This document shows, one piece after another, positions 1-36,377 of a DNA stretch of 36,377 bases. The position numbers and the translations under genes are program-made. Position 1 is the stretch's first letter. Every line of letters begins with the position of its first letter. The notes below the pieces were generated by a model that saw nothing but the letters and a program-made list of their open reading frames with translations, made no database searches and was not told where the DNA came from. Source of the DNA: a virus; IMG/VR virus record IMGVR_UViG_3300025889_000390, positions 1 to 36,377 of that record; one strand, 5' to 3'.

Positions 1-453
1 GGGGCCTGCCCTCAAGCGTCCTAGTGCTTTGTGTGCCACCTCTGCTGTGAGGGTTTGGCACTCATCGATGAGGCACACACCGCTTGTAATGTTGAGGCCC
101 TCCAATGGGTTATGCGTGGCCTCTCTAGTGCCAGGTCGATAATATGAGCGACACCACACTGATGAGCCTGTGTATGTATCTGTCCATAGTCTCAGCGTGT
201 GGTTATATTCCCATCCCAATGGTTCAAGCCATTTACTAATTTCAGGCATCAACACTGATGAGTAGCGTGGCGTGGTGTCTGTGATGAGCAGGCTTGAGCA
301 CCCCCTGCGCCATTTGCTCACCATCAATAGGGCAAACACTAGCGCTGATGTTTTACCGCTACCCCATCCACAGCGCGCTGATATTACCTCATCCTGTCTG
401 ATGATGCGTGCAATAATCGAGCGCTGCAGCTCATTGAGATTAATCTCACTCAT
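1..453 (-). CDS. Terminase large subunit, left copy, cut by the window edge
   Basis: These are the first 151 codons of a large terminase (DNA-packaging ATPase). They stay open to the window edge and are nearly identical to residues 1-151 of the complete gene at 34512-35885. Walker A (GWGSGKT, residues 29-35) and Walker B (LIDE, about 128-131) are both present. The start is the ATG inside an ATGAGTGA overlap with the small terminase stop, as in the right copy, which indicates translational coupling. The nuclease half lies outside the window. Substitutions against the right copy are mostly synonymous, so this copy looks functional as far as it is visible. Confidence 0.9.
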   Translation of the reverse strand, partial: MSEINLNELQRSIIARIIRQDEVISARCGWGSGKTSALVFALLMVSKWRRGCSSLLITDTTPRYSSVLMPEISKWLEPLGWEYNHTLRLWTDTYTGSSVWCRSYYRPGTREATHNPLEGLNITSGVCLIDECQTLTAEVAHKALGRLRAGP

Positions 454-850
454 CAGACTCCTCATCAATGGCATTCTGCTCAGCAATGAGCTGTTGAGCC
501 TGTGCCACCATACTCACCACCACATCAGAGCCATCACTCTTGTTTATCGTTACGTCTAGATCTCGCTTAGCCCCAAACTCATGAGGCCATCTGCGCTCAA
601 GCAGCCACGCAGCTGCGCGCCAGTCCTGCCTAGCCTCACCTAGTGTTTTTATTTCATTGAGCAGCACAGCCTTACTCACATCAATAGCAGCCTCAACATC
701 AGCAGATAGCTCAGCATCCTCATCACACCATCTGTGCAGAGTTTGGCGCGCTATGCCTGCCTGAGTGCATGCAATATCTCTAGTCATGCCCTGCCTGAGG
801 TTCATTAATATTATCTCTATCACCTCTGATGTTTTTTTGTTCCTGCTCAT
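446..850 (-). CDS. Terminase small subunit, left copy
   Basis: This 134-residue protein would recognise phage DNA for packaging and hand it to the large subunit. The N-terminal third carries a helix-turn-helix (around residues 21-42, GMTRDIACTQAGIARQTLHR), followed by a helical oligomerisation-type region and an acidic tail ending DEESDE. I chose the ATG at 850 over a GTG at 859 because GAG lies 8 bases upstream of it. The family call rests on the HTH, the size and the position directly before the large subunit, with an 8-base overlap. It differs from the right copy at six residues (around the SADVE segment, H/Q, L/V and N/S). Its 5' end overlaps the upstream (Ala-His) gene by about 71 bases. 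Confidence 0.8.
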   Translation of the reverse strand: MSRNKKTSEVIEIILMNLRQGMTRDIACTQAGIARQTLHRWCDEDAELSADVEAAIDVSKAVLLNEIKTLGEARQDWRAAAWLLERRWPHEFGAKRDLDVTINKSDGSDVVVSMVAQAQQLIAEQNAIDEESDE

Positions 851-1073
851 AATGTTCACTCAATGCTGCTATTAGTGTTTTTTCAATGTGGGTATAGAGT
901 TCTCTGCTCTCAGCGCTCAGCTCAGCCTCATCAGCTAACCATAAGCGCCTGCGTAACTCAGCCAAGATCTGCAGAGAGGCTGATTGACTCATGCGCGCTT
1001 GCGCGTGAGCGTGGGCATGTGCGTGCGCGTGCGCGTGCGCGTGGGCTGTCTCTGTTTGTAATATATTACTCAT
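780..1073 (-). CDS. Small protein with an N-terminal (Ala-His)7 repeat
   Basis: I do not recognise this 97-residue protein. After a short leader (MSNILQTET) it has seven Ala-His dipeptides (DNA 1005-1046), then a charged, mostly helical region rich in Glu, Leu and Arg. The repeat mixes synonymous codons (GCG, GCC, GCA and GCT; CAC and CAT), so the protein repeat may itself be selected, perhaps for metal binding; that is inference. I chose the ATG at 1073 because AGGTGA lies 5 bases upstream, overlapping the stop of the preceding gene. It overlaps the small terminase start by about 71 bases. A terminase-adjacent role is possible from position alone. Confidence 0.6.
   Translation of the reverse strand: MSNILQTETAHAHAHAHAHAHAHAQARMSQSASLQILAELRRRLWLADEAELSAESRELYTHIEKTLIAALSEHYEQEQKNIRGDRDNINEPQAGHD
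1005..1046. repeat. Alternating purine-pyrimidine (GCGTGC) tract coding for (Ala-His)7
   Basis: The 42 bases coding for seven Ala-His pairs include a 29-base uninterrupted alternating purine-pyrimidine run at 1015-1043, rich in GC/GT steps. Such runs can adopt Z-DNA when negatively supercoiled. The 6-base unit keeps frame, so copy-number changes would alter the His count without a frameshift. Confidence 0.8.
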
Positions 1074-2917: not shown

Positions 2918-3376
2918 TTAGCGTTGCCAGCCTGTGTTTGATGGGTGAGGCTCACCCCATTTAGTTTGTGGCTCAGCAGGCGCAACATGCCAAGGCTGAG
3001 GCTGAGGTTGTGAGCGCGGTGGCTCAGGTGGTAAAAATTGGTCTGAGGTTTTGACCTCCTCATCACGCTGTGAGAGGTTGCGCCATGTGAGAGCTTTAAT
3101 CTCAAACATGCGTTTACTCTCATATTCATATGAGCGCAGTGAGCCCTCAATATACACTAGATTGCCCTTGCGCAGCTGCTGTACACATCGATCTGCAGAG
3201 GGCCCCCAAACCTTTACAGTGTGCCACTCTGTATCAGTCTGCCAGACTCCCTGCCTGTCCTGATAGTTTTCATTTGTGGCCATGGTAAATCTGGCATACT
3301 GCTGATTACCTGCTGCTTTTAGTTCTGGTGGCTGCCCTATGTTGCCTATCAGTGTTACTCTGTTTATTGAAGTCAT
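2918..3376 (-). CDS. ssb: Single-stranded DNA-binding protein
   Basis: This is a 152-residue SSB. Residues 1-105 have the classic OB-fold signatures: SINRVTLIGNIGQPPELK, a WHTVKVWGPSADRC strand, then GNLVYIEGSLRSYEYE. A Pro/Gln-rich linker follows. The acidic DDDIPF-type tip by which cellular SSBs recruit partners is absent; the protein ends GWQR. The linker motif PPRSQPxPQP also occurs in the RecT-like protein. GAGAGG lies about 7 bases before the ATG. It sits between a small hypothetical gene and the nuclease-like gene and should protect ssDNA during phage replication and recombination. Confidence 0.93.
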   Translation of the reverse strand: MTSINRVTLIGNIGQPPELKAAGNQQYARFTMATNENYQDRQGVWQTDTEWHTVKVWGPSADRCVQQLRKGNLVYIEGSLRSYEYESKRMFEIKALTWRNLSQRDEEVKTSDQFLPPEPPRSQPQPQPWHVAPAEPQTKWGEPHPSNTGWQR

Positions 3377-3993: not shown

Positions 3994-4332
3994 CTATACA
4001 GATGGCGCACAAGGTTGCAAGTAATCTAACGCAGGACACTGCTGTAATGTTTGAATGATAGGCCCTAGGCATGTGGCGCACCTGGCAGCTATAAATGGGC
4101 TATCAGCATAAACCATTGAACCGCGTACATATCTCAGCCACCTCATTGCCTGTTTGCGTGCCTCATGGTTTATTCTCACCTCTGATGTGAACCGATAATC
4201 ACCACGCACTGTGTGTGCATAGTCATCAGTGAGTATTTGCAGCAGGGTGCTCTCACAGTATATCACTCGATCACCTGTATCTGTGATCATAGCAGCATCA
4301 TAAAATGATCGAGGTTGTAAATATTGTTTCAT
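3994..4332 (-). CDS. Hypothetical protein, last gene of the replication operon
   Basis: This is a 112-residue protein with no family I recognise. It is soluble, with two Cys close together near the C-terminus (AARCATCLG) that could bind metal or form a disulfide. The start taken is the ATG in an ATGA overlap with the DnaC-like stop; an in-frame ATG 9 bases upstream is the alternative. The overlap points to co-translation with the helicase loader, so a role in replication or its control is plausible from context only. Confidence 0.6.
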   Translation of the reverse strand: MKQYLQPRSFYDAAMITDTGDRVIYCESTLLQILTDDYAHTVRGDYRFTSEVRINHEARKQAMRWLRYVRGSMVYADSPFIAARCATCLGPIIQTLQQCPALDYLQPCAPSV

Positions 4333-5267
4333 ATGAGCCATGCCTTACTGAGAGGTTTTGCCTGCCTGCGATCTGTGCCCATCATCTGCACAGGCTCATC
4401 AAACATCTGCACTAATCTTGACCATGCAGCAGGATTATCTAAAAGCTCATGAATCAGTGATGGCCTCAGATTTGTGCCCATGATTACTGCCAGCTCACCT
4501 GCTGCCCATTTTTCATAGATTGCTTGAATCATGGCCACGCTTTGAGCTCTAAACCAATCAGTGTGAGCGCGCCCACCACCTACGCCACCAAACTCATCGA
4601 GTAAAAGTACATTAACTCCGGTCAGCCATCCCTCAAATGGATCATCTGCTTTACCTGAGAATGACCGTTTAAGCTGATCAAATAGCTGTGTGTGTGTAAC
4701 CCATCTCACAGAGAAATCATTAAACACGCACCATTTGGCAAGTGCATAGCTCAATGTGGTTTTGCCATTACCAGGTGGCCCCCACATTAGCAGTGATGGT
4801 GAGTGCTGATCATGATCATCAGTGCCACCATAGGTGAGCCAATGCATGAGCTGGTTTACTCTGTGTCTCTGCTCTGAGCTATCCCACTCATACATCTCAA
4901 GATGTGCCCCTTGTGCATCAGAGGGCAGATGCAAATCATTGAGTCGCTTGAGTCTTCTGCGTGGGCGCTCACAATGATCACAGAGATGGACTGCAGATGA
5001 GCCATCTGTTTTAGTGATCCGCACCCATCCATCCATGCACCTGCCACAGTGGGGTAGATCTTTTGCTCGATAATGGGCAGCCCTCTCATAGATGATGCCC
5101 TCAGCCTCTAGATTTGTTGGGTTTAAATGTCTGAAATCTAGCAGCTGCGCTGGCGCTTTAATGTTTTGAGGTCTATCTGCTATCGAGCGTTTAAGGCTGT
5201 TGAGCATTTGATTGATTGCAGGACTATCACCTAGCCTCTGCATATTGTCTGATTTAGAGCTGTTCAT
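4329..5267 (-). CDS. DnaC/IstB-like AAA+ helicase loader
   Basis: This 312-residue ATPase is likely to load the host replicative helicase at the phage origin, as lambda P or DnaC do. Residues 74-99 carry a CxxC-x18-CxxC zinc-binding module. The AAA+ core follows: Walker A GPPGNGKT (163-170), Walker B LLLDEFG (221-227), a GTN sensor (264-266) and a candidate Arg finger in WSRL (about 284). An N-terminal zinc module before a DnaC-type core is common in phage loaders. SD GAGGGGG precedes the ATG, and the start overlaps the initiator gene by 14 bases. Together with the initiator it forms an O/P-like replication pair. Confidence 0.88.
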   Translation of the reverse strand: MNSSKSDNMQRLGDSPAINQMLNSLKRSIADRPQNIKAPAQLLDFRHLNPTNLEAEGIIYERAAHYRAKDLPHCGRCMDGWVRITKTDGSSAVHLCDHCERPRRRLKRLNDLHLPSDAQGAHLEMYEWDSSEQRHRVNQLMHWLTYGGTDDHDQHSPSLLMWGPPGNGKTTLSYALAKWCVFNDFSVRWVTHTQLFDQLKRSFSGKADDPFEGWLTGVNVLLLDEFGGVGGGRAHTDWFRAQSVAMIQAIYEKWAAGELAVIMGTNLRPSLIHELLDNPAAWSRLVQMFDEPVQMMGTDRRQAKPLSKAWLI

Positions 5268-9841: not shown

Positions 9842-10501
9842 TCACTCAACTTTCTCAATAAAGATAAGCCCAAACTCTGAGGGTGTGTTGCCTTGGTTAG
9901 CTATTGAATCGATATTACTACTAGTCACCATCTCTAGATTATATGTGGTGCTAGATGTAATCTGAACAAAACCACGCGCTGTGCTATTTGATGGGCCATA
10001 GGCAACGCCTCTAGAATCACCTACAACGCCATAGGCAGTAACAGCAGTGCCTGCGCTAGTAAACATTTGATAAACGCCATATCCTGACGCGCTAAACTCA
10101 AACATGGTTTGCACTCTAAAAACATAATTCCCTGCTGGTAGCGTGATTGATTGAACCCAGTCATTCTCATCAGCGGTAGCACTGCCAGAGGTAACTGAGA
10201 TGCTAGCCCCTGTAATTGTGTTTATTGGTGCATCATCCCAAATATAAACTGTTTGGCCTGCATTGAATGATGTAGCAGGGCTGTTTGAATACGCTTTAGC
10301 TTTCCCACCTATCCAAATATGTTGAACAGTACTGCTAGGCGCATCCACAGCAGACCATGAAGCAGTACCACTTGAGTATTGGATGAGCTGCCCTGTGGTA
10401 GGAGCTGCCGCGCTTACATCACTGAGATCATTTAAACCAACTGTAACATCACCTTGAATATTAGGACTCTGACCTCCCACCTTTGTATTATTATGGCTCA
10501 T
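9842..10501 (-). CDS. Small tail fibre or receptor-binding protein
   Basis: This 219-residue protein starts MSHNNTKVGGQSPNIQGDVT and continues VGLNDLSDVSAAAPTTGQLIQYSSGTASW, a single copy of the module repeated in the large fibre. Its C-terminal 150 residues are a beta-rich domain (GNYVFRVQTMFEFSASGYGVY) typical of a fibre head. The start at 10501 is a TAATG overlap with the fibre stop, with GGGAGA upstream; an in-frame start at 10516 is less likely. It probably assembles with, or competes with, the large fibre for the tail tip. Confidence 0.65.
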   Translation of the reverse strand: MSHNNTKVGGQSPNIQGDVTVGLNDLSDVSAAAPTTGQLIQYSSGTASWSAVDAPSSTVQHIWIGGKAKAYSNSPATSFNAGQTVYIWDDAPINTITGASISVTSGSATADENDWVQSITLPAGNYVFRVQTMFEFSASGYGVYQMFTSAGTAVTAYGVVGDSRGVAYGPSNSTARGFVQITSSTTYNLEMVTSSNIDSIANQGNTPSEFGLIFIEKVE

Positions 10502-13053
10502 TAGATGATCTCCCAATGTGAACCGGTTGAAACAAGTGTGATAGCTGAGTATTGTACATCCATTGTGTAATCATTTGTTGATCCATCAATGTTCTGTGTC
10601 TGTGGGTCAATGGTGATGGTACCTGTGCCCATGTTTTTAATTCTAATCTCTTGACCTGCGCTCACTCCGCTTGTGGGTAGGGTGATTGTGAATGTGCCTG
10701 TGCATGAATAGTGGTAGCCTGCCTGTGCATTGGCAGGGTCTGCAGTGATTGCGCTATAAGTCCACCCTCCACCTGATGCTGCAGCATTTACCCATGCAGA
10801 GCCATTGTAGCTGAGTACTTGGCCATTAGTCGCAGTCGTGATGGTTACATCACTCAAATCACCAATGCTCTCACCTGTAATGCCTGTGAGATATCCTGCA
10901 TCATTAGTAAACGTGCTCACATTCGTAGGTGTGCCACTGAGATCTGAGTAAGCGAGCACAGCATCTACCCACGCTGAGCCATTATATCTGAGCACCTCAC
11001 CTGATGCTGCCCCTGTGATGGTAACGTCTGACAGATCACCAATGCTCTCACCTGTGATGCCTGTGAGATAGCCTGCATCATTGGTAAATGTGCTCACATT
11101 CGTAGGTGTGCCTGATAGATCAGAATAGGCGAGTGTGGCATCTACCCACACTGAGCCATTGTATCTGAGCACCTCACCTGTGCTAGCTGCTGTGATGGTT
11201 ACATCACTGAGGCCTGCCAATGAGCCTGCAGATGCTGCGCTATTCACCCATGCAGAGCCATTATAGCTGAGCACCTGGCCATTAGTCGCAGTGGTAATAG
11301 TAACATCAGAGAGATCACTAATGCTCTCACCTGTGATATCTGTGAGGTAGCCTGCATCATTATTAAATTTACTGAGGCCTATTGCGCTGAGCGCAGTGCT
11401 CACAGATTGATTACTCGCATTGCCTAAAAAGATCTTGTCTTGATCTAGATTAGGGGTAGCAGCTGAGCGCCCTGCGCCACCTACATTAATCACCCCATCA
11501 CCATTGTTTGAGCGTACTACGCGCCCAATATTTTGCAGCTGTGATGTTTCGCCTGTGGGCTTTGTTGCTGTGAGCGCTCCTGCTGTGGTGCTGATATAGA
11601 GTGTATCTCCCACGCTAAATGTGGATGTGTTGAGCCCACCTAAATTGCCAAATGAGACAACCTGCACCTCTGCTTGATCATTAGCCCCTGCAAATGCTAG
11701 CCCAAATGCAGGCATTTTAGATGCATCATTTGCATCAGCTAGGCCCACTGTAGGTGTAGTGCCATCACCTGCTAGACCCTTAATATAGAGGGCCTGCCCT
11801 GCAGTGATTGCAGCCCCCTCATCATTCTTAGCCTTGAACCTCACAGCCCCATTGAGATCAGAGTAAGTGGTGATGTATCGGTTATCCTCAGAACCTATGG
11901 TATGAGTAGCATCTGCATCTGGCACTAGATCAGCACCTATTGAGATATTACCTGTGCCATTTGGATTAATACTGACATCAGCATTTGAGGCTGAGGTGAT
12001 GGCATTGCCATTGGTATCAAGTGCACCACCTAATTGGGGGCTAGTATCATCTACAACACTCAGCGCTGCATCTACCCATGATGAGCCATTATATCTGAGG
12101 TATTCACCATCTGCAGGGGCAGTGATAGTAGTATCAGTTAGCCCTGCTAGTGAGCCTGCAGATGCTGCGCTATTCACCCATGCAGAGCCATTGTAGCTCA
12201 GCACTTGGCCATTGGTCGCAGTCGTGATGGTTACATCACTCAAATCACCAATGCTCTCACCTGTGATATCTGTGAGGTAGCCTGCATCATTAGTAAACGT
12301 GCTCACGTTTGTAGGTGTGCCACTGAGATCTGAGTAAGCGAGTGTGGCATCTACCCATGCTGAGCCATTGTATCTGAGCACCTCACCTGTACTAGCTGCT
12401 GTGATGGTTACATCACTGAGATCACCAATGCTCTCACCTGTGATATCTGTGAGGTAGCCTGCATCATTGGTGAGGGTGCTGATATTATCACCACTCTCTA
12501 GTTTTGTGCCTAGTGTGGTATCAATGCCACTGAGATGGCCATCAATGTTGCTATTTGTGGGGCTGTAATTACTCGCAGCGTGATCTGCTGCGAGATCATC
12601 AGCGCTGAGCACTATTGCACCAGAGGTAAAACCATTTACTGAGGTGATGGCATCTGTGTTGTCTATTTTGTCGATTTTACTATTGAGGATCACTCCACCG
12701 CCTATATCCTCATTAATCAGCAGATGGTCACCTACTGCCCATATACGCCCAAAGGCAGTGCCAGCTGTGTCGATGATATAAAGATCACCCTGCAGAGCAT
12801 TGCTCAAACTAGGTAGCTGTGTTGTAGCATTAAATGACCCCTTATATGTGAGGCCTGCTGCAAGTGTGCCTAGCTTAGTATCTATGCCTGAGAGGTGGCC
12901 ATCAATGTTGCTATTTGTGGGGCTGTAATTACTCGCAGCGTGATCAGCTGCGAGATCATCAGCGCTCAGCACTACAGCAGGGCCTGTGTCACCATTTACT
13001 GAGGTAACACCACCACCACCACCACCTGTGAATGTGTCAAATTTAATAGCCAT
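10501..13053 (-). CDS. Large modular tail fibre protein
   Basis: This 850-residue protein is built of repeats. After a Gly-rich start (TGGGGGG), a unit containing VVLSADDLAADHAASNYSPT is duplicated. Seven copies of a roughly 30-residue module (L-x-D-x-TIT...G-[EQ]-x-L-x-YNGSxWV) follow, several separated by YSDLSGTPTNVSTFTNDAGY. A middle domain (VRFKAKNDEGAAITAGQALYI onward) and the C-terminal domain (FTITLPTSGVSAGQEIRIKN) are familiar from phage fibres. It should trimerise and bind the host surface. AAGGGG precedes the ATG by 8 bases. The repeats could let recombination change fibre length. Confidence 0.85.
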   Translation of the reverse strand: MAIKFDTFTGGGGGGVTSVNGDTGPAVVLSADDLAADHAASNYSPTNSNIDGHLSGIDTKLGTLAAGLTYKGSFNATTQLPSLSNALQGDLYIIDTAGTAFGRIWAVGDHLLINEDIGGGVILNSKIDKIDNTDAITSVNGFTSGAIVLSADDLAADHAASNYSPTNSNIDGHLSGIDTTLGTKLESGDNISTLTNDAGYLTDITGESIGDLSDVTITAASTGEVLRYNGSAWVDATLAYSDLSGTPTNVSTFTNDAGYLTDITGESIGDLSDVTITTATNGQVLSYNGSAWVNSAASAGSLAGLTDTTITAPADGEYLRYNGSSWVDAALSVVDDTSPQLGGALDTNGNAITSASNADVSINPNGTGNISIGADLVPDADATHTIGSEDNRYITTYSDLNGAVRFKAKNDEGAAITAGQALYIKGLAGDGTTPTVGLADANDASKMPAFGLAFAGANDQAEVQVVSFGNLGGLNTSTFSVGDTLYISTTAGALTATKPTGETSQLQNIGRVVRSNNGDGVINVGGAGRSAATPNLDQDKIFLGNASNQSVSTALSAIGLSKFNNDAGYLTDITGESISDLSDVTITTATNGQVLSYNGSAWVNSAASAGSLAGLSDVTITAASTGEVLRYNGSVWVDATLAYSDLSGTPTNVSTFTNDAGYLTGITGESIGDLSDVTITGAASGEVLRYNGSAWVDAVLAYSDLSGTPTNVSTFTNDAGYLTGITGESIGDLSDVTITTATNGQVLSYNGSAWVNAAASGGGWTYSAITADPANAQAGYHYSCTGTFTITLPTSGVSAGQEIRIKNMGTGTITIDPQTQNIDGSTNDYTMDVQYSAITLVSTGSHWEII
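10786..12475. repeat. Tandem coding repeats in the tail fibre gene
   Basis: Two blocks (10786-11360 and 12070-12475) hold near-identical DNA copies of the seven fibre modules and their YSDLSGTP spacers, separated by the unique middle domain. Repeated phrases such as CACCAATGCTCTCACCTGT recur several times. A second duplicated pair (around 12530-12610 and 12890-12970) codes for the LSADDLAADHAASNYSPT unit. Confidence 0.85.
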
Positions 13054-28879: not shown

Positions 28880-30460
28880 TTAGCCTCCAAATGCTTGAGC
28901 GTAGTAGTCAGGGTTATCCTGTCGAAATTGATTTAATGCCTCAGAGTATGTAAGGCCCTTTTCTGCCTGCAACTCTTGAACACGCCTATTTAAAGTGGCC
29001 TTTGTGATTTCCTCACCTGATGCGCCATGCCCAATCTGAGTGAGAGGCACTGCACTATTAGCAGGGCGCTCAGAAAACATCTGCCAAAATTCAGGCTGTA
29101 GCTCACGCATAGCAAATGCACTGTGCGCAACCTTCTCCTCATTGGGTGTGATGCGCCCCTCTCTCAAGAGAGCGCCAACAGCCTCACGCGCTAAAACTGC
29201 GCGCTTCTCAGCCTCAATGGCCTCAATACGCTCAGATAGCTTATTATTAGCCTCACGCAATGATTGTACCTCAGAGAGTAGCGTTGACTCTGAGAGCTTC
29301 TCACTCATGGCATAGCCTTTTTTCTTTTCTTCCTCAGTCATTTGCTCGGCCTCATCAACAGGCTCATCAGTGACCTCCTCAGCCATCTGCTCGGCCTCAT
29401 CCTCAGCCTCTACAAGTTTGGCCTCATTATCTGCGGCCATCTCTGCAATTTTGTTTTCGAGTTCACGCACCATCTCATCCTTAGCAATGAGCATAGCGCG
29501 CAAATCCTCAACAGACATAGACTCTAGATTATCAATCATAGATATCCTTTCATTGAGTGTAACCCTGCTGATTTTGTCATGTGATTGCGCAGGGCGTGGG
29601 GTTAAAGTGATTGCGAGTAATTGAGCAGTGCCAATGAGTGCCCCACCATCTCTAGTGTAGACCTCACCACAAATAAACTCAGGGGATGACCAAAGCACCC
29701 CACCTGCGTTTTTAACTACACTTAGGCCGCGCTCATTATATGCAGGCACTGCATAAAGGCCATCATGCCTCAGCTCTAAATCAATGATGAGGCCCAAAGC
29801 ATTGCCGCTCTCAGGTGGCGCAGGTGGGCCCCCATTGAATGGGCTAGTAGCATGTTGCCAGTCTATAATCACAGGGTCTGCAAATCTGCGTTTGCGATAA
29901 ACTCGCACCATCTCAGTGAGCATGGCAAGATCGATCTCTTGACCAATATGTTCACCGCTCATGCGTGAACTTACCTGACCTAGCGCTAGGGTTTTAAATG
30001 CCCTGCCAATAGTCAGCCCCTCTGGCACTTCATATGTGGGGACAGGCTCAGCGATCTGCACCGCCTCACCATAGGCTCTGAGTGCTGTAGTTTTCTCATC
30101 TGCTGTTTTCATCTGCGTTAAAACTTTCTTGGCCCATGTATAGCCCTCATCACCTCCCCATCCCATCCAAGCCTGCCACCCTTTGCCCTGATCATCCCAA
30201 GTTGACCCCTGCTTATCAATCTCATGGCGCGTAAAATATGCCACCATGCGCTTGATGGTATCAGGGCTGAGTGTTTTACCGTTGGCTAAATCACGCGCAC
30301 GTGCAATGCCTGTGGGTGTCATCCCTCTGTTAGATGCAGCCTTATCTGCTCTCACCTCAAGTGCACGTTTGGCATTTGCCTGCACGCCCTTTGGGGGCTC
30401 AAATGAGATGTGGCTATATTTATTAGGTATGCTGAGTTTAATTTTAATACGCCTAGCCAT
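28880..30460 (-). CDS. Head protease and scaffold fusion (Mu I-like)
   Basis: This 526-residue protein has three parts. Residues 1-110 are a conserved phage module (SFEPPKGVQANAKRALEVR, GIARARDLANGKTLSPDTIK, WMGWGGDEGYTWAKK). Residues about 145-320 match Mu I-type head maturation proteases (DWQHATSPFNGGPPAPPESG, ALGLIIDLELRHDGLYAVP, YNERGLSVVKNAGGVLWSSP). From about 330 there is an acidic, Glu-rich coiled coil and a C-terminal domain expected of a scaffold. It overlaps the portal gene by 8 bases and precedes the decoration and capsid genes. Confidence 0.8.
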   Translation of the reverse strand: MARRIKIKLSIPNKYSHISFEPPKGVQANAKRALEVRADKAASNRGMTPTGIARARDLANGKTLSPDTIKRMVAYFTRHEIDKQGSTWDDQGKGWQAWMGWGGDEGYTWAKKVLTQMKTADEKTTALRAYGEAVQIAEPVPTYEVPEGLTIGRAFKTLALGQVSSRMSGEHIGQEIDLAMLTEMVRVYRKRRFADPVIIDWQHATSPFNGGPPAPPESGNALGLIIDLELRHDGLYAVPAYNERGLSVVKNAGGVLWSSPEFICGEVYTRDGGALIGTAQLLAITLTPRPAQSHDKISRVTLNERISMIDNLESMSVEDLRAMLIAKDEMVRELENKIAEMAADNEAKLVEAEDEAEQMAEEVTDEPVDEAEQMTEEEKKKGYAMSEKLSESTLLSEVQSLREANNKLSERIEAIEAEKRAVLAREAVGALLREGRITPNEEKVAHSAFAMRELQPEFWQMFSERPANSAVPLTQIGHGASGEEITKATLNRRVQELQAEKGLTYSEALNQFRQDNPDYYAQAFGG

Positions 30461-31868
30461 TGCGCCTGCTCCTCACTAGACGCTCAGCAAATGCACCAAG
30501 GCTGCCACCTGTTGATGCTGTGCGCTCACTCGCTGTACGCTGTGCCTCCTCAGGCAAATCACCTGCGCCTAGCCTCTCTCTGATAGCACGCTCGAGCTCA
30601 TCATCTGGCGTGAGTATACCTGCCTGTACAAGCTGAGGCAACATGGCCATGCTATCTGCTAAATCATCAGTATCTAGGCCTGTGTGTGTTAGGCGTGGCA
30701 ATTTTGATGGGTCTATAGCGCCATAGTTCCAACGCACCAAACGACCAATAGTGCCACCCCCTCTGCGATCAATGCCACTAATCTGAGAGGCTACCAAATC
30801 ACACAGATTGATAGCTGCACGTCTAAACACGCTGAGATGTATCTCACCCACTGAGCGTGCACCTGTCTCAGTGTTGCCTAGGTCTGCAAACTGAGTAAGA
30901 AAAGCAGAGGCAATCTGTGAATCACATTTATTGATGATATCTAGAGGCCCCTGTGCATAGAGGTTAGGCTGTTGAGCATATGAATCAAACTTTACTGCTG
31001 CAGTCTCTACTAAATAGCTCTGCTCTGTGCTGAGAAAAGCCTGCGCTTGTGCCTCTGCATCATCGATCATAGCAGTGATATCAGCATCAGTGAGGCCCAA
31101 TGCCTCAGCCTGTGACCTGTCTACAGTAATTTTAGGCGTAGGCACTGCCCATCTATCGAGCCCCACACACATGAGATTTGATGCGCGTTGCTTGGTGCGC
31201 CACCACCACCACACAGGGCGCAACATGCCCACGCCCTCAAAGTTTGAGCCTGTTTTATTGAGGGTGAGCAATAGCAGCTTATTTGATGGTATGGGCTCAG
31301 GGGCTACTGATGAGCCCACAATATTCTGCATCACGCCATCGAGCTGCTGAGAGTCACGGCTCAGCCACCTATTATGCGCTGATGGCTCACGGTCTGCATA
31401 TTGATCTAGCCAAACTCTGATGCGCCCCTCACTATCGGGCCCTACTCTATAGACCTCCTCAGCGTATCTATAACCCAAGGGGATAAACTCAAATAGATAT
31501 GCCAGCTGCTCCTCAAAGCTCAGAGACATTTGCCCTGCATAGCCATCAAATCCATAGGCCTCATTTGCAAAGCGCGCTAGCTCATCAGCAATAGCATCAC
31601 CCTCAATGCCAGGCTCAAAACGCCATGATGCGCTGAGCAGTGTTTGCCTCAGCATATGCCATGAGCGCCGAACAATAGGATCAGTCCTCAGCATCTCCTC
31701 AGCCTCATGCACCCATGAGAGGCCTGTGAGCTGTGGGTTTTGTTCTTTGCCTGTGATAGTGCCACCACTGAGCTGAGTGCCAGTGATACCACGCACGCCA
31801 AAGCGTGGGGCTATTGCTCTCATGTGGCGTGGGTTTCGCTCATCTATATTCATGGCATCCCTGCTCAT
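30453..31868 (-). CDS. Portal protein (Mu gp29 / DUF935-like)
   Basis: This portal of up to 471 residues has LRTDPIVRRSWHMLRQTLLS followed by ASWRFEPG, the signature N-terminal pattern of Mu-type portals. Next are FEFIPLGYRYAEEVYRV, then PNLYAQGPLDIINKCDSQIA and the helical C-terminus. It forms the dodecameric DNA channel at one capsid vertex. The start is uncertain: ATG at 31868, or ATG at 31853 (MNIDERN) with AGGGA four bases upstream. It is the first gene after the promoter at 31901-31929. Confidence 0.82.
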   Translation of the reverse strand: MSRDAMNIDERNPRHMRAIAPRFGVRGITGTQLSGGTITGKEQNPQLTGLSWVHEAEEMLRTDPIVRRSWHMLRQTLLSASWRFEPGIEGDAIADELARFANEAYGFDGYAGQMSLSFEEQLAYLFEFIPLGYRYAEEVYRVGPDSEGRIRVWLDQYADREPSAHNRWLSRDSQQLDGVMQNIVGSSVAPEPIPSNKLLLLTLNKTGSNFEGVGMLRPVWWWWRTKQRASNLMCVGLDRWAVPTPKITVDRSQAEALGLTDADITAMIDDAEAQAQAFLSTEQSYLVETAAVKFDSYAQQPNLYAQGPLDIINKCDSQIASAFLTQFADLGNTETGARSVGEIHLSVFRRAAINLCDLVASQISGIDRRGGGTIGRLVRWNYGAIDPSKLPRLTHTGLDTDDLADSMAMLPQLVQAGILTPDDELERAIRERLGAGDLPEEAQRTASERTASTGGSLGAFAERLVRSRRNG

Positions 31869-32027: not shown

Positions 32028-32492
32028 TTATGTCCATCTCTGCACGTCAGGATGTAGGATAACCTCATCCTCTGTGGGTGGCGTTACAGGTGAGCCACTG
32101 AGCATGCTGAGCTTTTCAATGATGGTGGTTTGCAATGTCAACAAATGATCATGTTTAATCTGCATTTGAATCTGTGCATCTCTGAGCCTAGCAATAAGTG
32201 CCTCTCTATCTGAGTTAGCTGAGGCTAATTTGTCTTTAAGCTCCTCAACCTCTGAGGGGTCACGCCCTGAGGCAATGGCCATCATCGATGAGATACTGCC
32301 TGTGATCACACCTAGTATGCCAATTAACACATCACGATTCTCATCTACTATTTTTACATAGGTTAGAAATAGGATGAGGCCCACCACCATGCATAGAAAT
32401 ACCACACTAAACCACCACCCCCTGCGCGCTTTCTCTGTTTGCGTGAATTCTTTATGGCTCTGCATCTGTGGCTTTGGCTGTTTGTCGCTCAT
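32028..32492 (-). CDS. Two-helix membrane protein with coiled coil, partner of the cyclase
   Basis: This is a 154-residue protein. A polar N-terminus is followed by two membrane helices (about 26-48, WWFSVVFLCMVVGLILFLTY; about 55-75, VLIGILGVITGSISSMMAIA) with a short loop between. A long coiled coil (about 78-130) and a Pro/Glu-rich tail follow, probably cytoplasmic. No cyclic-nucleotide-binding domain is visible. The start is the ATG in an ATGA overlap with the cyclase stop (an in-frame start 51 bases upstream is less likely), so the two are translationally coupled. It could be the cyclase's effector, regulator or membrane scaffold; holin-like activity is an alternative. Confidence 0.7.
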   Translation of the reverse strand: MSDKQPKPQMQSHKEFTQTEKARRGWWFSVVFLCMVVGLILFLTYVKIVDENRDVLIGILGVITGSISSMMAIASGRDPSEVEELKDKLASANSDREALIARLRDAQIQMQIKHDHLLTLQTTIIEKLSMLSGSPVTPPTEDEVILHPDVQRWT

Positions 32493-33301
32493 GGTAGCTC
32501 TGGCAATATCTCTATGATGATGTAAATGATAGGGTCTAGCCATGTTAGGCCATTCATTAACCTAGCATGAGGATCAATAATAATGGGGGCTAATATACTG
32601 ATCCACCATGCAAGGATGATCAGAGCTAGGTTTTTAGTAAACCACCATAGCCATTCTCTCAATGCTCGATCTCTCAAGCGTGATCTAATTTTTTTAGGGC
32701 CTGCTAAGCGCTTCACCTTCTCAGATGATGGTGGTGGCTGTAGTGATTCAATGGTAGCCCCTACAGTATAGATAAGCTGAGGCTCACGCACACCCTTAAA
32801 TCTATATTCACCTGCTAACGCATAGCGTGTGCCCTTAGGTGTAAAATTATTAGTACGCCCTTTAACAGCCCTCATGGCCTCAGCTGTGAGAAGTACCTGC
32901 CCTGCGCCACATAGGCTCATTGTGCGTGCTGCAATGTTTTTAGCTATGCCCTCAAGCTCAATGCTTTTAGCACCTGCCATCACACTCAGCTCATCCTGCT
33001 GCACCTCCACTATCACGCCATAATGCACACCAATGCGCGCATGTAGTTTGGTTTTCTCAGGTATGCTCTGCTGATAGATGAGGGCAAAATTAACAGCATC
33101 TACAGGCCTCTCAAAGCTCAGCAAAAAGCCATCAGATCTATCTATTTCTCTACCATCAAATTTGTAAACTAATGAGCGTGCTAATCTGTCATGATACTGC
33201 AGCCATTTTGCACCCTGCAGAGCTCCTGCTCTCTGCACAAATGCTGTGCTGCCTATAAGATCGAGTAATACTATAGTGAGATAGCGCTCAGTGTATTGCA
33301 T
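32489..33301 (-). CDS. Class III nucleotidyl cyclase with C-terminal membrane helices
   Basis: This 270-residue protein has a class III cyclase homology domain (about 5-180). The two metal-binding Asp are present (D14 in LLDLIGST; D57 in RSDGFLLSF), as are RIGVHYG and the catalytic N122/R126 in AKNIAARTM. The purine-selecting Lys/Asp pair is not canonical: Ile stands where Lys is usual and Glu115 where Asp is usual, so the substrate base cannot be assigned. A basic linker leads to two hydrophobic segments (about 218-241 and 252-266). Start: ATG at 33301 with GAGGTGA overlapping the methyltransferase stop. Enzymes of this type are rare in phage late operons. Product and role are unknown. Confidence 0.85.
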   Translation of the reverse strand: MQYTERYLTIVLLDLIGSTAFVQRAGALQGAKWLQYHDRLARSLVYKFDGREIDRSDGFLLSFERPVDAVNFALIYQQSIPEKTKLHARIGVHYGVIVEVQQDELSVMAGAKSIELEGIAKNIAARTMSLCGAGQVLLTAEAMRAVKGRTNNFTPKGTRYALAGEYRFKGVREPQLIYTVGATIESLQPPPSSEKVKRLAGPKKIRSRLRDRALREWLWWFTKNLALIILAWWISILAPIIIDPHARLMNGLTWLDPIIYIIIEILPELP

Positions 33302-33309
33302 CACTCACC

Positions 33310-34515
33310 TCAGAACAGGCTGAGCTGATCACCTGCTTTGATTGTGGGTTTCTTGTTTGTAGGTGTTGAGGGTTCATATGCACCACCTGACCAATGAGCC
33401 AACCTTGCCTGCGCAATTTCAACATACTCAAGCTCACGCTCAATGCCTAGCATATTGAACCCCTCAAGCGCAGCTGCGCAGAGTGTTGTGCCTGATCCTG
33501 CAAATGGATCAAGCACAGTTCCATCAGGTGGGGTGATGAGCCTGCAGAGATAGCGCATGAGATCAATGGGCTTTACAGTGGGGTGTGTGTTTGCCCTTGG
33601 CTGTGCGCCACTTGTGCCTGCGTAGGGATTAGCTTTTTTCATGCCATTTTCATGCAACATCACTAATCCTGCTGAGCCCTCTTTTCTACCTGTAATCTCA
33701 CTGCTGCTCACTTTAGTGAGCCCCTCCAAGCCTGCTTCACGTTCTTTCTTACTAGCCTTAGTGGTATAGAAGAATCTATCAGCCCCTTTCAGCATATCAG
33801 CAGCAACCTCATCAAGCATGACGTTTGCAGGCCATCTGCCCAACTGCTCAAGCCCTGCCTGCTTTCTCAAATATGCGCTGCTTGCCCCATTGCCAACTGC
33901 AAACATACCACCATCAATTTTGTTCATACGTCCTAGATCATCTGAAGTATCAATTCTGCATGAATCTATATTAATAGCACCACAGCCATGGCTTAAAGTA
34001 TTCTGAGCTACAGTGCCCTCTAAAGGTTTTCTGATTAAAATAATAGGCTCATAAGCAGGCTTAAGAGCTGTACCCCATCCCTGCCATTTTTGTGATGCTG
34101 CTTCTTTAGGTTCATATTTATCAATGCTTAAGGCCACATTATGAGACTTTGGGAATCCACTGCCATAAAGCCACACTAGCCTATCTCTCACCTCAAAGCC
34201 GCTCAGCCTCAGCGAAATGCTCATTAAGTCCTCAGTGCGTGAGCCACTAAAAACAAGCCCATGAGCGCCTGGCTTTAACACTCTATAAACCTCACGCCAT
34301 AGCGCAGGATCAGGCACCCATTTATCCCATGCTTTACCCATAAAGCCTGTGCCTTTCGCGTTATGAGTTGAGCCACTGAGCCAAGCATTAAGGCACTCAG
34401 CCACAGCTGTGGGTGAGGTATCACCTAGCCCATAAGGTGGATCTGTAACAAGGGCCTCGATACTATTAGACTCAAGCTCTCTGAGCTTCTCAATGCTATC
34501 ACCATGAATAATCAA
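33310..34515 (-). CDS. DNA methyltransferase (N6-adenine/N4-cytosine, beta-type order) with clamp-binding tail
   Basis: This 401-residue methyltransferase has the DPPY catalytic motif at 25-28, then a long central target-recognition region and the SAM-binding FAGSGTT motif at 338-344, the order of beta-class enzymes. HPTVKP before motif I is also typical. The last five residues, QLSLF, match the consensus bacterial sliding-clamp-binding peptide QL[SD]LF. It probably protects phage DNA from host restriction. The start is TTG (34515), 6 bases after AGGAG and overlapping the terminase stop. There is no cognate restriction gene nearby, so it is an orphan enzyme. Confidence 0.92.
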   Translation of the reverse strand: MIIHGDSIEKLRELESNSIEALVTDPPYGLGDTSPTAVAECLNAWLSGSTHNAKGTGFMGKAWDKWVPDPALWREVYRVLKPGAHGLVFSGSRTEDLMSISLRLSGFEVRDRLVWLYGSGFPKSHNVALSIDKYEPKEAASQKWQGWGTALKPAYEPIILIRKPLEGTVAQNTLSHGCGAINIDSCRIDTSDDLGRMNKIDGGMFAVGNGASSAYLRKQAGLEQLGRWPANVMLDEVAADMLKGADRFFYTTKASKKEREAGLEGLTKVSSSEITGRKEGSAGLVMLHENGMKKANPYAGTSGAQPRANTHPTVKPIDLMRYLCRLITPPDGTVLDPFAGSGTTLCAAALEGFNMLGIERELEYVEIAQARLAHWSGGAYEPSTPTNKKPTIKAGDQLSLF

Positions 34516-35885
34516 AATGTTCTCCTACTTGAACTGCCCACTTGCACACGCCTGCTGCCCCCGTTGCGCTTTAATCTAGGCTGATAATGTTTTGAGTCTA
34601 TAATAGTGTCATGCCAGTTAAACATAATGCAGTCATATCTGAGCGCGTCTAGAGGATCCTCACGCCCATCCTTTTTAGGTTTCTCGTCATTATCCCATGA
34701 ATAACTGAGCAGAGCTTTTCTGAGGCTGTTACCTCTGGCACGCTCACCACGTTGCCACACCTCAGCAGTGATCAGATAACGCCTAGATGAGAAAGCGCGT
34801 TTAAGGCGTTGGATGCCATTGAGGATATCTACTCTGATGGGGTCTGATGTGTTGCGTAGTGGCATGCCTAGCCCTGCAGGTGGTGGTGCTCTCATGGCTC
34901 TAAATGCTGAGGCCCCTGTTTGATCATTGCGCGCTTTGCCTGCCTTATCTGCCACCCCATCATCTAGCCATATGCGTGGCCCTGGTGCCTGTCCTTGCAG
35001 TGAGCGTGGCCATGCTATGCTGAGAATCATCTCAGCTAGCTGTGATGTAGTGACCTCAGCAGGGTTGATCTCATGGCAGATCACTGAGGCCTGCAGCCTC
35101 TCATCATAGGCCATAATTAAAACAGAGGGTTTTCTAAACCCCCAATCTATGGCAATGCGCGCAGTCATGCTCTCATTGTATTGCCAGCCTTCAATTACAT
35201 GCGACTCAGTAAACTCAGAATAGATGAGGCCTGTGGGAGGTGCAGGTCTATTCATCACCATAGCCTCACGCTCAGATTGTGGCAGCAGTTTAGTAGCCTC
35301 AAACCATGCCTCTGATAGGTTCGCTTGATTTACATATGAGGTGAACAATAGAGGGTCATAGCCTGCCTGCTCAGCCATCGAGCACCACCATGCATCTGCC
35401 ACAGGTAGGCCTACCAAGATGAGGATAGGTGAGGGGCCTGCCCTCAAGCGCCCTAAGGCTTTGTGTGCCACCTCTGCTGTGAGGGTCTGGCATTCATCGA
35501 TGAGGCACACACCGCTTGTAATGTTGAGGCCCTCCAATGGGTTATGCGTGGCCTCTCTAGTACCAGGTCGATAATATGAGCGACACCACACTGATGAGCC
35601 TGTGTGCGTATCTGTCCATAATCTTAGAGTGTGGTTATATTCCCATCCTAATGGCTCCAACCATTTACTAATCTCAGGCATTAACACTGATGAGTAGCGT
35701 GGCGTGGTGTCTGTGATGAGCAGGCTTGAGCACCCCCTGCGCCATTTGCTCACCATCAATAGGGCAAACACAAGCGCTGATGTTTTACCGCTACCCCATC
35801 CACAGCGCGCAGAGATTACCTCATCTTGTCTGATGATGCGTGCAATGATCGAGCGCTGCAGCTCATTGAGATTGATCTCACTCAT
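34512..35885 (-). CDS. Terminase large subunit
   Basis: This 457-residue packaging motor has Walker A GWGSGKT (29-35), Walker B CLIDE (127-131), and the nuclease domain with Asp in AIDWGF (247), WLDDG (308-309) and DPLDALRY (410-417). It would cut concatemers and pump DNA through the portal. The start is the ATG in ATGAGTGA shared with the small-subunit stop; an in-frame start 33 bases upstream would place extra residues inside the small subunit. The first 151 codons are duplicated, with about 5% divergence, at 1-453. The C-terminus is Ser/Arg-rich (SSSRRTF). Confidence 0.93.
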   Translation of the reverse strand: MSEINLNELQRSIIARIIRQDEVISARCGWGSGKTSALVFALLMVSKWRRGCSSLLITDTTPRYSSVLMPEISKWLEPLGWEYNHTLRLWTDTHTGSSVWCRSYYRPGTREATHNPLEGLNITSGVCLIDECQTLTAEVAHKALGRLRAGPSPILILVGLPVADAWWCSMAEQAGYDPLLFTSYVNQANLSEAWFEATKLLPQSEREAMVMNRPAPPTGLIYSEFTESHVIEGWQYNESMTARIAIDWGFRKPSVLIMAYDERLQASVICHEINPAEVTTSQLAEMILSIAWPRSLQGQAPGPRIWLDDGVADKAGKARNDQTGASAFRAMRAPPPAGLGMPLRNTSDPIRVDILNGIQRLKRAFSSRRYLITAEVWQRGERARGNSLRKALLSYSWDNDEKPKKDGREDPLDALRYDCIMFNWHDTIIDSKHYQPRLKRNGGSRRVQVGSSSRRTF

Positions 35886-36282
35886 CAGACTCCTCATCAA
35901 TAGCACTCTGCTCAGCAATGAGCTGTTGAGCCTGTGCTACCATACTCACCACCACATCAGAGCCATCACTCTTGTTTATCGTCACATCTACATCACGCTT
36001 GGCCCCAAACTCTTGAGGCCATCTGCGCTCAAGCAGCCAAGCAGCTGCGCGCCAATCTTGCCTAGCCTCACCTAATGTTTTTATCTCATTGAGTAGCACA
36101 GCCTTGCTCACATCAATAGCAGCCTCAACCTCATCAGCTAGCTCAGCATCCTCATCACACCACCTGTGCAGAGTTTGGCGCGCAATGCCAGCTTGAGTGC
36201 ATGCTATATCTCTAGTCATGCCCTGCCTGAGGTTCATTAGTATTATCTCGATCACCTCTGATGTTTTTTTGTTCCTGCTCAT
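35878..36282 (-). CDS. Terminase small subunit, right copy
   Basis: This 134-residue HTH protein (helix-turn-helix about 21-42) overlaps the large subunit start by 8 bases. It has ADEVEAA where the left copy has SADVEAA, and Q, V and S at three later positions (H, L and N in the left copy); all other residues agree. The start is the ATG at 36282, as in the left copy. Because it is followed by the complete large subunit, this copy belongs to the intact packaging pair in the window. Confidence 0.82.
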   Translation of the reverse strand: MSRNKKTSEVIEIILMNLRQGMTRDIACTQAGIARQTLHRWCDEDAELADEVEAAIDVSKAVLLNEIKTLGEARQDWRAAAWLLERRWPQEFGAKRDVDVTINKSDGSDVVVSMVAQAQQLIAEQSAIDEESDE

Positions 36283-36377
36283 AATGTTCACTCAATGCTG
36301 CTATTAGTGTTTTTTCAATGTGGGTATAGAGTTCTCTGCTCTCAGCGCTCAGCTCAGCCTCATCAGCTAACCATAAG
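36212..36377 (-). CDS. (Ala-His) protein, right copy, C-terminal part only
   Basis: The reading frame of the 780-1073 gene continues here up to the window edge, with the same stop and only one amino-acid change visible (Ile to Thr near the C-terminus). The N-terminal half, including the Ala-His repeat, is outside the window. It shows that the same gene precedes the right terminase copy. Confidence 0.7.
   Translation of the reverse strand, partial: LWLADEAELSAESRELYTHIEKTLIAALSEHYEQEQKNIRGDRDNTNEPQAGHD

Follow-up and report, generated by a model that had tools for sequence, protein, structure and literature searches.

A predicted sliding-clamp-binding motif at the C-terminus of a phage DNA methyltransferase, conserved in its clade and recurrent in its family

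A 36,377-nucleotide stretch of viral DNA (IMG/VR record IMGVR_UViG_3300025889_000390; the window hereafter) encodes a predicted DNA methyltransferase whose exact C-terminus is GDQLSLF followed by the stop codon, and QLSLF is a candidate ligand of the bacterial sliding clamp. We consider it likely that this protein is an orphan beta-class methyltransferase whose tail is tethered to the host clamp, allowing fresh phage DNA to be methylated before packaging; the orphan status is a predicted part of this reading and shares its probability. The final pentapeptide would fit into the hydrophobic pocket of DnaN, the beta clamp of the host, and the tail of roughly 26 residues would give the catalytic domain access to DNA close by. 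Clamps at forks, together with those left on lagging-strand fragments, would keep the enzyme on phage DNA that has just been copied. Forks are where clamps are concentrated, and clamps stay on DNA after use, with about 46 DNA-bound clamps in E. coli in steady state (PMC4284645). Target sites would then be methylated before packaging by the terminase encoded beside the methyltransferase, and the methylated progeny would be protected from restriction in the next host. Such protection is reported for methyltransferases of lactococcal 936-type phages (PMC4190342). Clamp binding by this protein, its localisation at forks and the protective purpose, or benefit, of methylation are the steps that we infer.

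The methyltransferase and its C-terminal tail

The methyltransferase gene starts with a TTG codon, shares 4 bases with the 3' end of the gene for the terminase large subunit and stops at TGA. Its product matched the PF01555 N6_N4_Mtase profile (E 3e-27; 96.4 bits against a curated cut-off of 26.7) and the phrog_67 DNA methyltransferase family (E 3e-63). Both signature motifs are intact, with DPPY first and FxGxG C-terminal to it, which is the beta-class order, and fold comparison gave CcrM (6pbd) as the best solved structure (E 6.5e-16), with RsrI and M.PvuII also found. From sequence and modelled fold, the product is a predicted beta-class N6/N4 DNA methyltransferase. The search for a restriction enzyme beside it gave no endonuclease family match among the scanned proteins, which were part of the gene set; the identified neighbours are the terminase and, following the methyltransferase in this order, a cyclase-like gene, a small gene and the portal gene. 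Coordinates are collected in Table 1.

Table 1. Features of the methyltransferase gene and related genes in the window
Feature	Position	Strand	Evidence
DNA methyltransferase gene	33310..34515	(-)	401 aa; PF01555, phrog_67, fold match CcrM 6pbd
Catalytic motif IV DPPY, residues 25-28	34432..34443	(-)	invariant in 45 aligned homologues
SAM-binding motif I FAGSG, residues 338-342	33490..33504	(-)	F338, G340 and G342 invariant in 45 aligned homologues
Unstructured linker, residues 376-396 (GGAYEPSTPTNKKPTIKAGD)	33328..33390	(-)	no secondary structure; sequence and length vary among homologues
QLSLF, predicted sliding-clamp-binding motif, residues 397-401	33313..33327	(-)	translation, homologue conservation
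Terminase large subunit, upstream of methyltransferase, same gene block	34512..35918	(-)	phrog_5653 E 1e-7; order same in L005, L009, L014
Portal protein, downstream of methyltransferase	30453..31868	(-)	PF06074 Portal_Mu E 3e-27; phrog_113
DnaC-like helicase loader	4329..5267	(-)	phrog_50 E 1e-23

The first-pass annotation had placed a QLSLF pentapeptide at the extreme C-terminus, and this was borne out by translation of the reading frame (...KPTIKAGDQLSLF*, with ...EPSTPTNKKPTIKAGDQLSLF as the final residues before TGA), in which the motif is encoded by CAG CTC AGC CTG TTC. The range of 33310-33324 assigned to it was one codon off, with the stop codon occupying 33310-33312 and the Gln codon (33325-33327) falling outside. 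The flexible linker proposed to precede the motif is supported by an AlphaFold model, in which the domain is confident and the last helix (residues 362-375) is followed by no secondary structure up to residue 401, with a block-mean pLDDT of about 47-50 for the tail. Flexible tails are a usual place for clamp-binding motifs. The pentapeptide fits both QL[SD]LF and the consensus Q-aliphatic-x-[LM]-[FL] (PMC13254535). Its proposed identity as a bacterial clamp-binding peptide is strengthened by affinities measured for the exact sequence in another protein: PolC of B. subtilis naturally has QLSLF as its C-terminal clamp motif, which shows a KD of 3.8 uM for B. subtilis DnaN and about five-fold tighter, sub-micromolar binding to E. 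coli DnaN (PMC12309361). Clamp binding in E. coli is helped by a free C-terminal carboxylate and acidic flanks (PMC11139829), and in the methyltransferase the motif ends at the carboxylate and directly follows an Asp.

The neighbouring gene pair consists of a class III nucleotide-cyclase-like gene (32489-33304, minus strand) beside the small gene (32028-32543, minus strand). The cyclase-like protein matched PF00211 (8e-5) and TIGR04510 (5e-46, below its cut-off), contains VLLDLIGST and DRSDG and has a hydrophobic C-terminus, while the small protein carries RRGWWFSVVF in most copies. PADLOC gave no match for the pair in the window. The cyclase was found in at least five related phages, beside the methyltransferase in L004, L005 and L014 (numbers with the prefix L denote loci of our homologue set) and also at 7437-8749 of L012 and 10795-12134 of L013; it occurs away from the methyltransferase as well. 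Elsewhere, the small-subunit terminase region, together with the first part of the large subunit, is present at both ends of the window (1-859 and 35433-36291), in copies that resemble each other without being identical (94% over the first 300 bases). It looks as though variants from two strains, with a genome either circular or redundant, had been joined here. A predicted 850-residue protein (10501-13053, minus strand) contains three families of internal DNA repeats with 70-90% identity.

Conservation and recurrence of the motif

A tail not conserved among homologues had been named in the first-pass annotation, next to a failure of the peptide to bind, as an observation that would speak against its proposal; the proposal withstood the comparison of homologues. 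In a FastTree analysis of 269 sequences, restricted to the methyltransferase domain so that the tail was left out, the window protein fell in a clade of 32 sequences (support 97), a count free of selection for motif presence. The motif is kept in 31 of these, L008 being the exception, with 21 Q-type (Qxx[LMI]F), eight PLF-type and two other LF forms, while the linker has diverged, varying from 11 to 26 residues in length and having, in most columns, a commonest residue in well under half of the rows. By position, Gln1 is present in 21/32, Leu2 in 30/32, Leu4 in 32/32 and Phe5 in 31/32, and position 3 is free (S, P, N, D, E, K or T); position 3 is also the least important one in published clamp motifs (PMC11139829). 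The 21 Q-type motifs are written in 17 different codon strings, indicating by this scatter of synonymous codons that their identity is not just the result of recent common descent of the DNA. Retention of the motif while the linker diverges bears, as judged from these alignments, the mark of selection acting on a short linear motif. Position identity among tails picked for having the motif is biased by that choice and was dropped as evidence.

Across the wider family, four viral scans and a bacterial genome scan gave about 330 loci, from which 250 closed tails, extending 5-60 residues past the last conserved helix, were grouped into 149 clusters at 60% tail similarity. LF was present in 68 of the 149 clusters (46%), compared with a shuffled mean of 11 (7%), and similar excesses were seen for Qxx[LMI]F (25 clusters; 0.8 in shuffles), QLxLF (10; 0.03), [LVIQ]PLF (12; 0.13) and an exact LF ending (28 tails; 0.7), with the observed counts reached by none of 5000 shuffles. 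The LF enrichment is not due to composition because the reversed dipeptide FL, used as a control, was rarer than expected (2 versus 11). When methyltransferases were compared with the other proteins of the same loci, QLxLF lay within the last 30 residues of 14/192 versus 2/849, and an LF ending was found in 31/192 versus 3/849. The two QLxLF exceptions outside the family are a small-domain methyltransferase (PF05175) at 7233-8039 of L082, ending in QLTLFGEAA, and a protein at 799-1350 of L297 that ends in QLNLFEEDNQ and has no Pfam family match.

The trait is recurrent in the wider family, conserved in the window's branch and not universal. At least 19 changes of the Q-type state, and at least 33 of the any-LF state, occurred on the tree. 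Many distant homologues have no such motif; among the cultured phages sampled, it is lacking in 9NA, SP069, Proteus RS10pmA, Klebsiella BU9, Vibrio CKB-S1, Corynebacterium Kimchi1738 and several mycobacteriophages, the proteins of which stop shortly past the last helix. It is kept in the alphaproteobacterial cultured relatives Rhodobacter phage RcCronus (GQASLFDL) and RHph_X2_25 (QPADLFGVVA) and in a Bradyrhizobium plasmid (AGPLFSG), and in some homologues further residues follow it.

In prophages of Rhizobiales, the motif takes the form [GDA]LPLF at or near the end of the protein (NGLPLFSPL in L087, EGLPLFGG in L088, EDLPLFGGA in L090 and SALPLFGDN in L082). MutS carries DDLPLF in all four of the corresponding host genomes, in which DnaE2 also carries RLPLF, close to where GQ[SN]D[MI]F lies in DnaE1. 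Given that a role of LPLF in DnaE2 is only putative, MutS is the main comparison, and in C. crescentus the DLPLF motif of MutS is needed for replisome recruitment (PMC8034640). Sequence comparison places the motif type in register with the host MutS form in Rhizobiales. Searches of alphaproteobacterial genomes matched 3 of 385 genomes at the class level and 12 of 397 at the order level, and PLF or another LF form was found near the end of 10 of 13 further homologues (one fragment and the L087 copy were set aside). The motif may also hint at the host, since the Rhizobiales copies carry the form of their own hosts' MutS.

The partner clamp and competing explanations

Profile searches of the window gave no match for DNA polymerase A (PolA), DNA polymerase B (PolB), DNA polymerase III alpha or the beta clamp. 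Its replication genes encode a single-stranded DNA-binding protein (SSB), the DnaC-like loader, which points to use of the host replisome, and a RecT-like protein. Because no recognisable phage polymerase or clamp is present, the partner of the tail should be host DnaN, and to judge from this gene content the phage would most likely use the host replisome and clamp. Tethering to the fork for immediate methylation, as originally proposed, is plausible and agrees with both the order of the genes and the lack of a polymerase in the phage. Against the preferred reading, the placement of the gene among packaging genes might mean that little enzyme is present when replication starts.

That 9NA and Proteus RS10pmA have their own polymerase and lack the motif raised the possibility that the motif is confined to polymerase-free phages. 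This was rejected, as a family A or B polymerase was encoded in 5/26 motif-bearing versus 3/24 motif-free contigs among 50 viral contigs. A phage-coded clamp as the partner was likewise rejected; none was found in the window, and the clamps in 4 of 50 other contigs were divided between two with the motif and two without. L095 (52.7 kb) and L096 (63.2 kb) each combine their own beta clamp (PF02767) with a methyltransferase tail containing GPLF, and in these the tail's partner may be the phage clamp. The SSB of the window (2918-3376, minus strand) ends in GEPHPSNTGWQR, as does that of the L005 relative, without the acidic DDIPF-like tip that is the usual means of partner recruitment by SSB.

Clamp binding could also serve to time methylation with packaging or to shorten the hemimethylated state, as in control of terminase cutting, rather than to counter restriction. 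In the window, L005 and L014 the gene has the terminase on one side and the portal on the other, and in L009 it comes immediately after the terminase, as such a role would suggest, but its position differs in the motif-bearing phages L013 and L012, and we regard this explanation as unlikely. Still less credit can be given to the LF tail being a dimer contact, a DNA contact or a self-docking element and no clamp ligand. Although the tail directly follows the last helix of the fold, the AlphaFold model shows no structure in it, only the clamp pattern stays constant as its length and sequence change, some members extend past the motif, and the motif type tracks the host MutS form in Rhizobiales. 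By another account, the tail would occupy host clamps and thereby slow host replication or block repair factors, with methylation independent of it. The same motif evidence would fit, and SocB provides a precedent by blocking DnaN in Caulobacter (PMC9690074); however, a phage that relies on Pol III of the host would impair its own replication, and one C-terminal motif with micromolar affinity, carried by an enzyme whose catalytic motifs are invariant, would make a poor inhibitor, which renders this account very doubtful. Five-residue motifs can arise by accident, but mere resemblance is exceedingly improbable given that 0.0004 occurrences of QLxLF are expected at the C-termini of all 43 window genes from the window's amino-acid composition (with no further occurrence elsewhere in its predicted proteome), that the family counts exceeded all shuffles and that, as chance would not predict, the motif persists in the clade while the linker diverges.

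Comparison with known clamp clients and methyltransferases

The motif itself, phage methyltransferases, transposases using the same device and the DNMT1-PCNA pair are already known; as far as we have seen, the combination of motif and methyltransferase, its repeated appearance in the family and its match to the host's form of the motif are new. We lean towards the broader view that a general trait has evolved repeatedly in phage and prophage methyltransferases, namely tethering to the clamp through a motif adapted to the host's own form (QLxLF in one set, xLPLF in Rhizobiales), as a prokaryotic counterpart of DNMT1-PCNA. If true, it would explain how progeny methylation is completed in the brief interval from DNA synthesis to packaging, and it raises the question of whether phage DNA modification is limited by access to the replication fork.

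CcrM and the M.RsrI-type beta-class enzymes share the fold and motif order of the window protein at low sequence identity, and CcrM has a C-terminal domain where the window protein has its short tail. The methyltransferases of lactococcal 936-type phages are likewise phage-borne (PMC4190342), and we saw no account of a clamp-binding tail in them. More generally, no clamp-binding motif was reported for a bacterial or phage methyltransferase in the literature covered, in which subscription papers and preprints were thinly represented.

The bacterial beta-clamp binders PolC, Pol II, Pol IV, Pol V, MutS and Hda carry the same canonical C-terminal motif, the QLxLF pentapeptide, after a flexible tail, and Pol V has the QLNLF seen in the relatives L004, L010 and L269 (PMC11139829). 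Here, by contrast, the client would be a phage DNA methyltransferase, a class absent from that 2024 review of the beta clamp, the text of which contains no word beginning with 'methyl'; DNA methyltransferases would thus join the clients of the bacterial sliding clamp. Insertion sequence transposases that bind host beta (e.g. IS1634) are also enzymes of mobile elements with a recurrent, convergent C-terminal QLxLF (PMC4549789), but they move DNA, whereas the methyltransferase modifies bases and its motif is conserved within the closest clade. Finally, eukaryotic DNMT1 is a methyltransferase recruited to newly copied DNA by the sliding clamp PCNA (PMC9690074). It is an unrelated cytosine methyltransferase, and the present case differs in its predicted partner, the beta clamp, in its C-terminal motif and in its phage setting. 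If the proposed reading is true, phages would couple the marking of DNA to its copying, in parallel to the PCNA-bound maintenance methyltransferase of eukaryotes.
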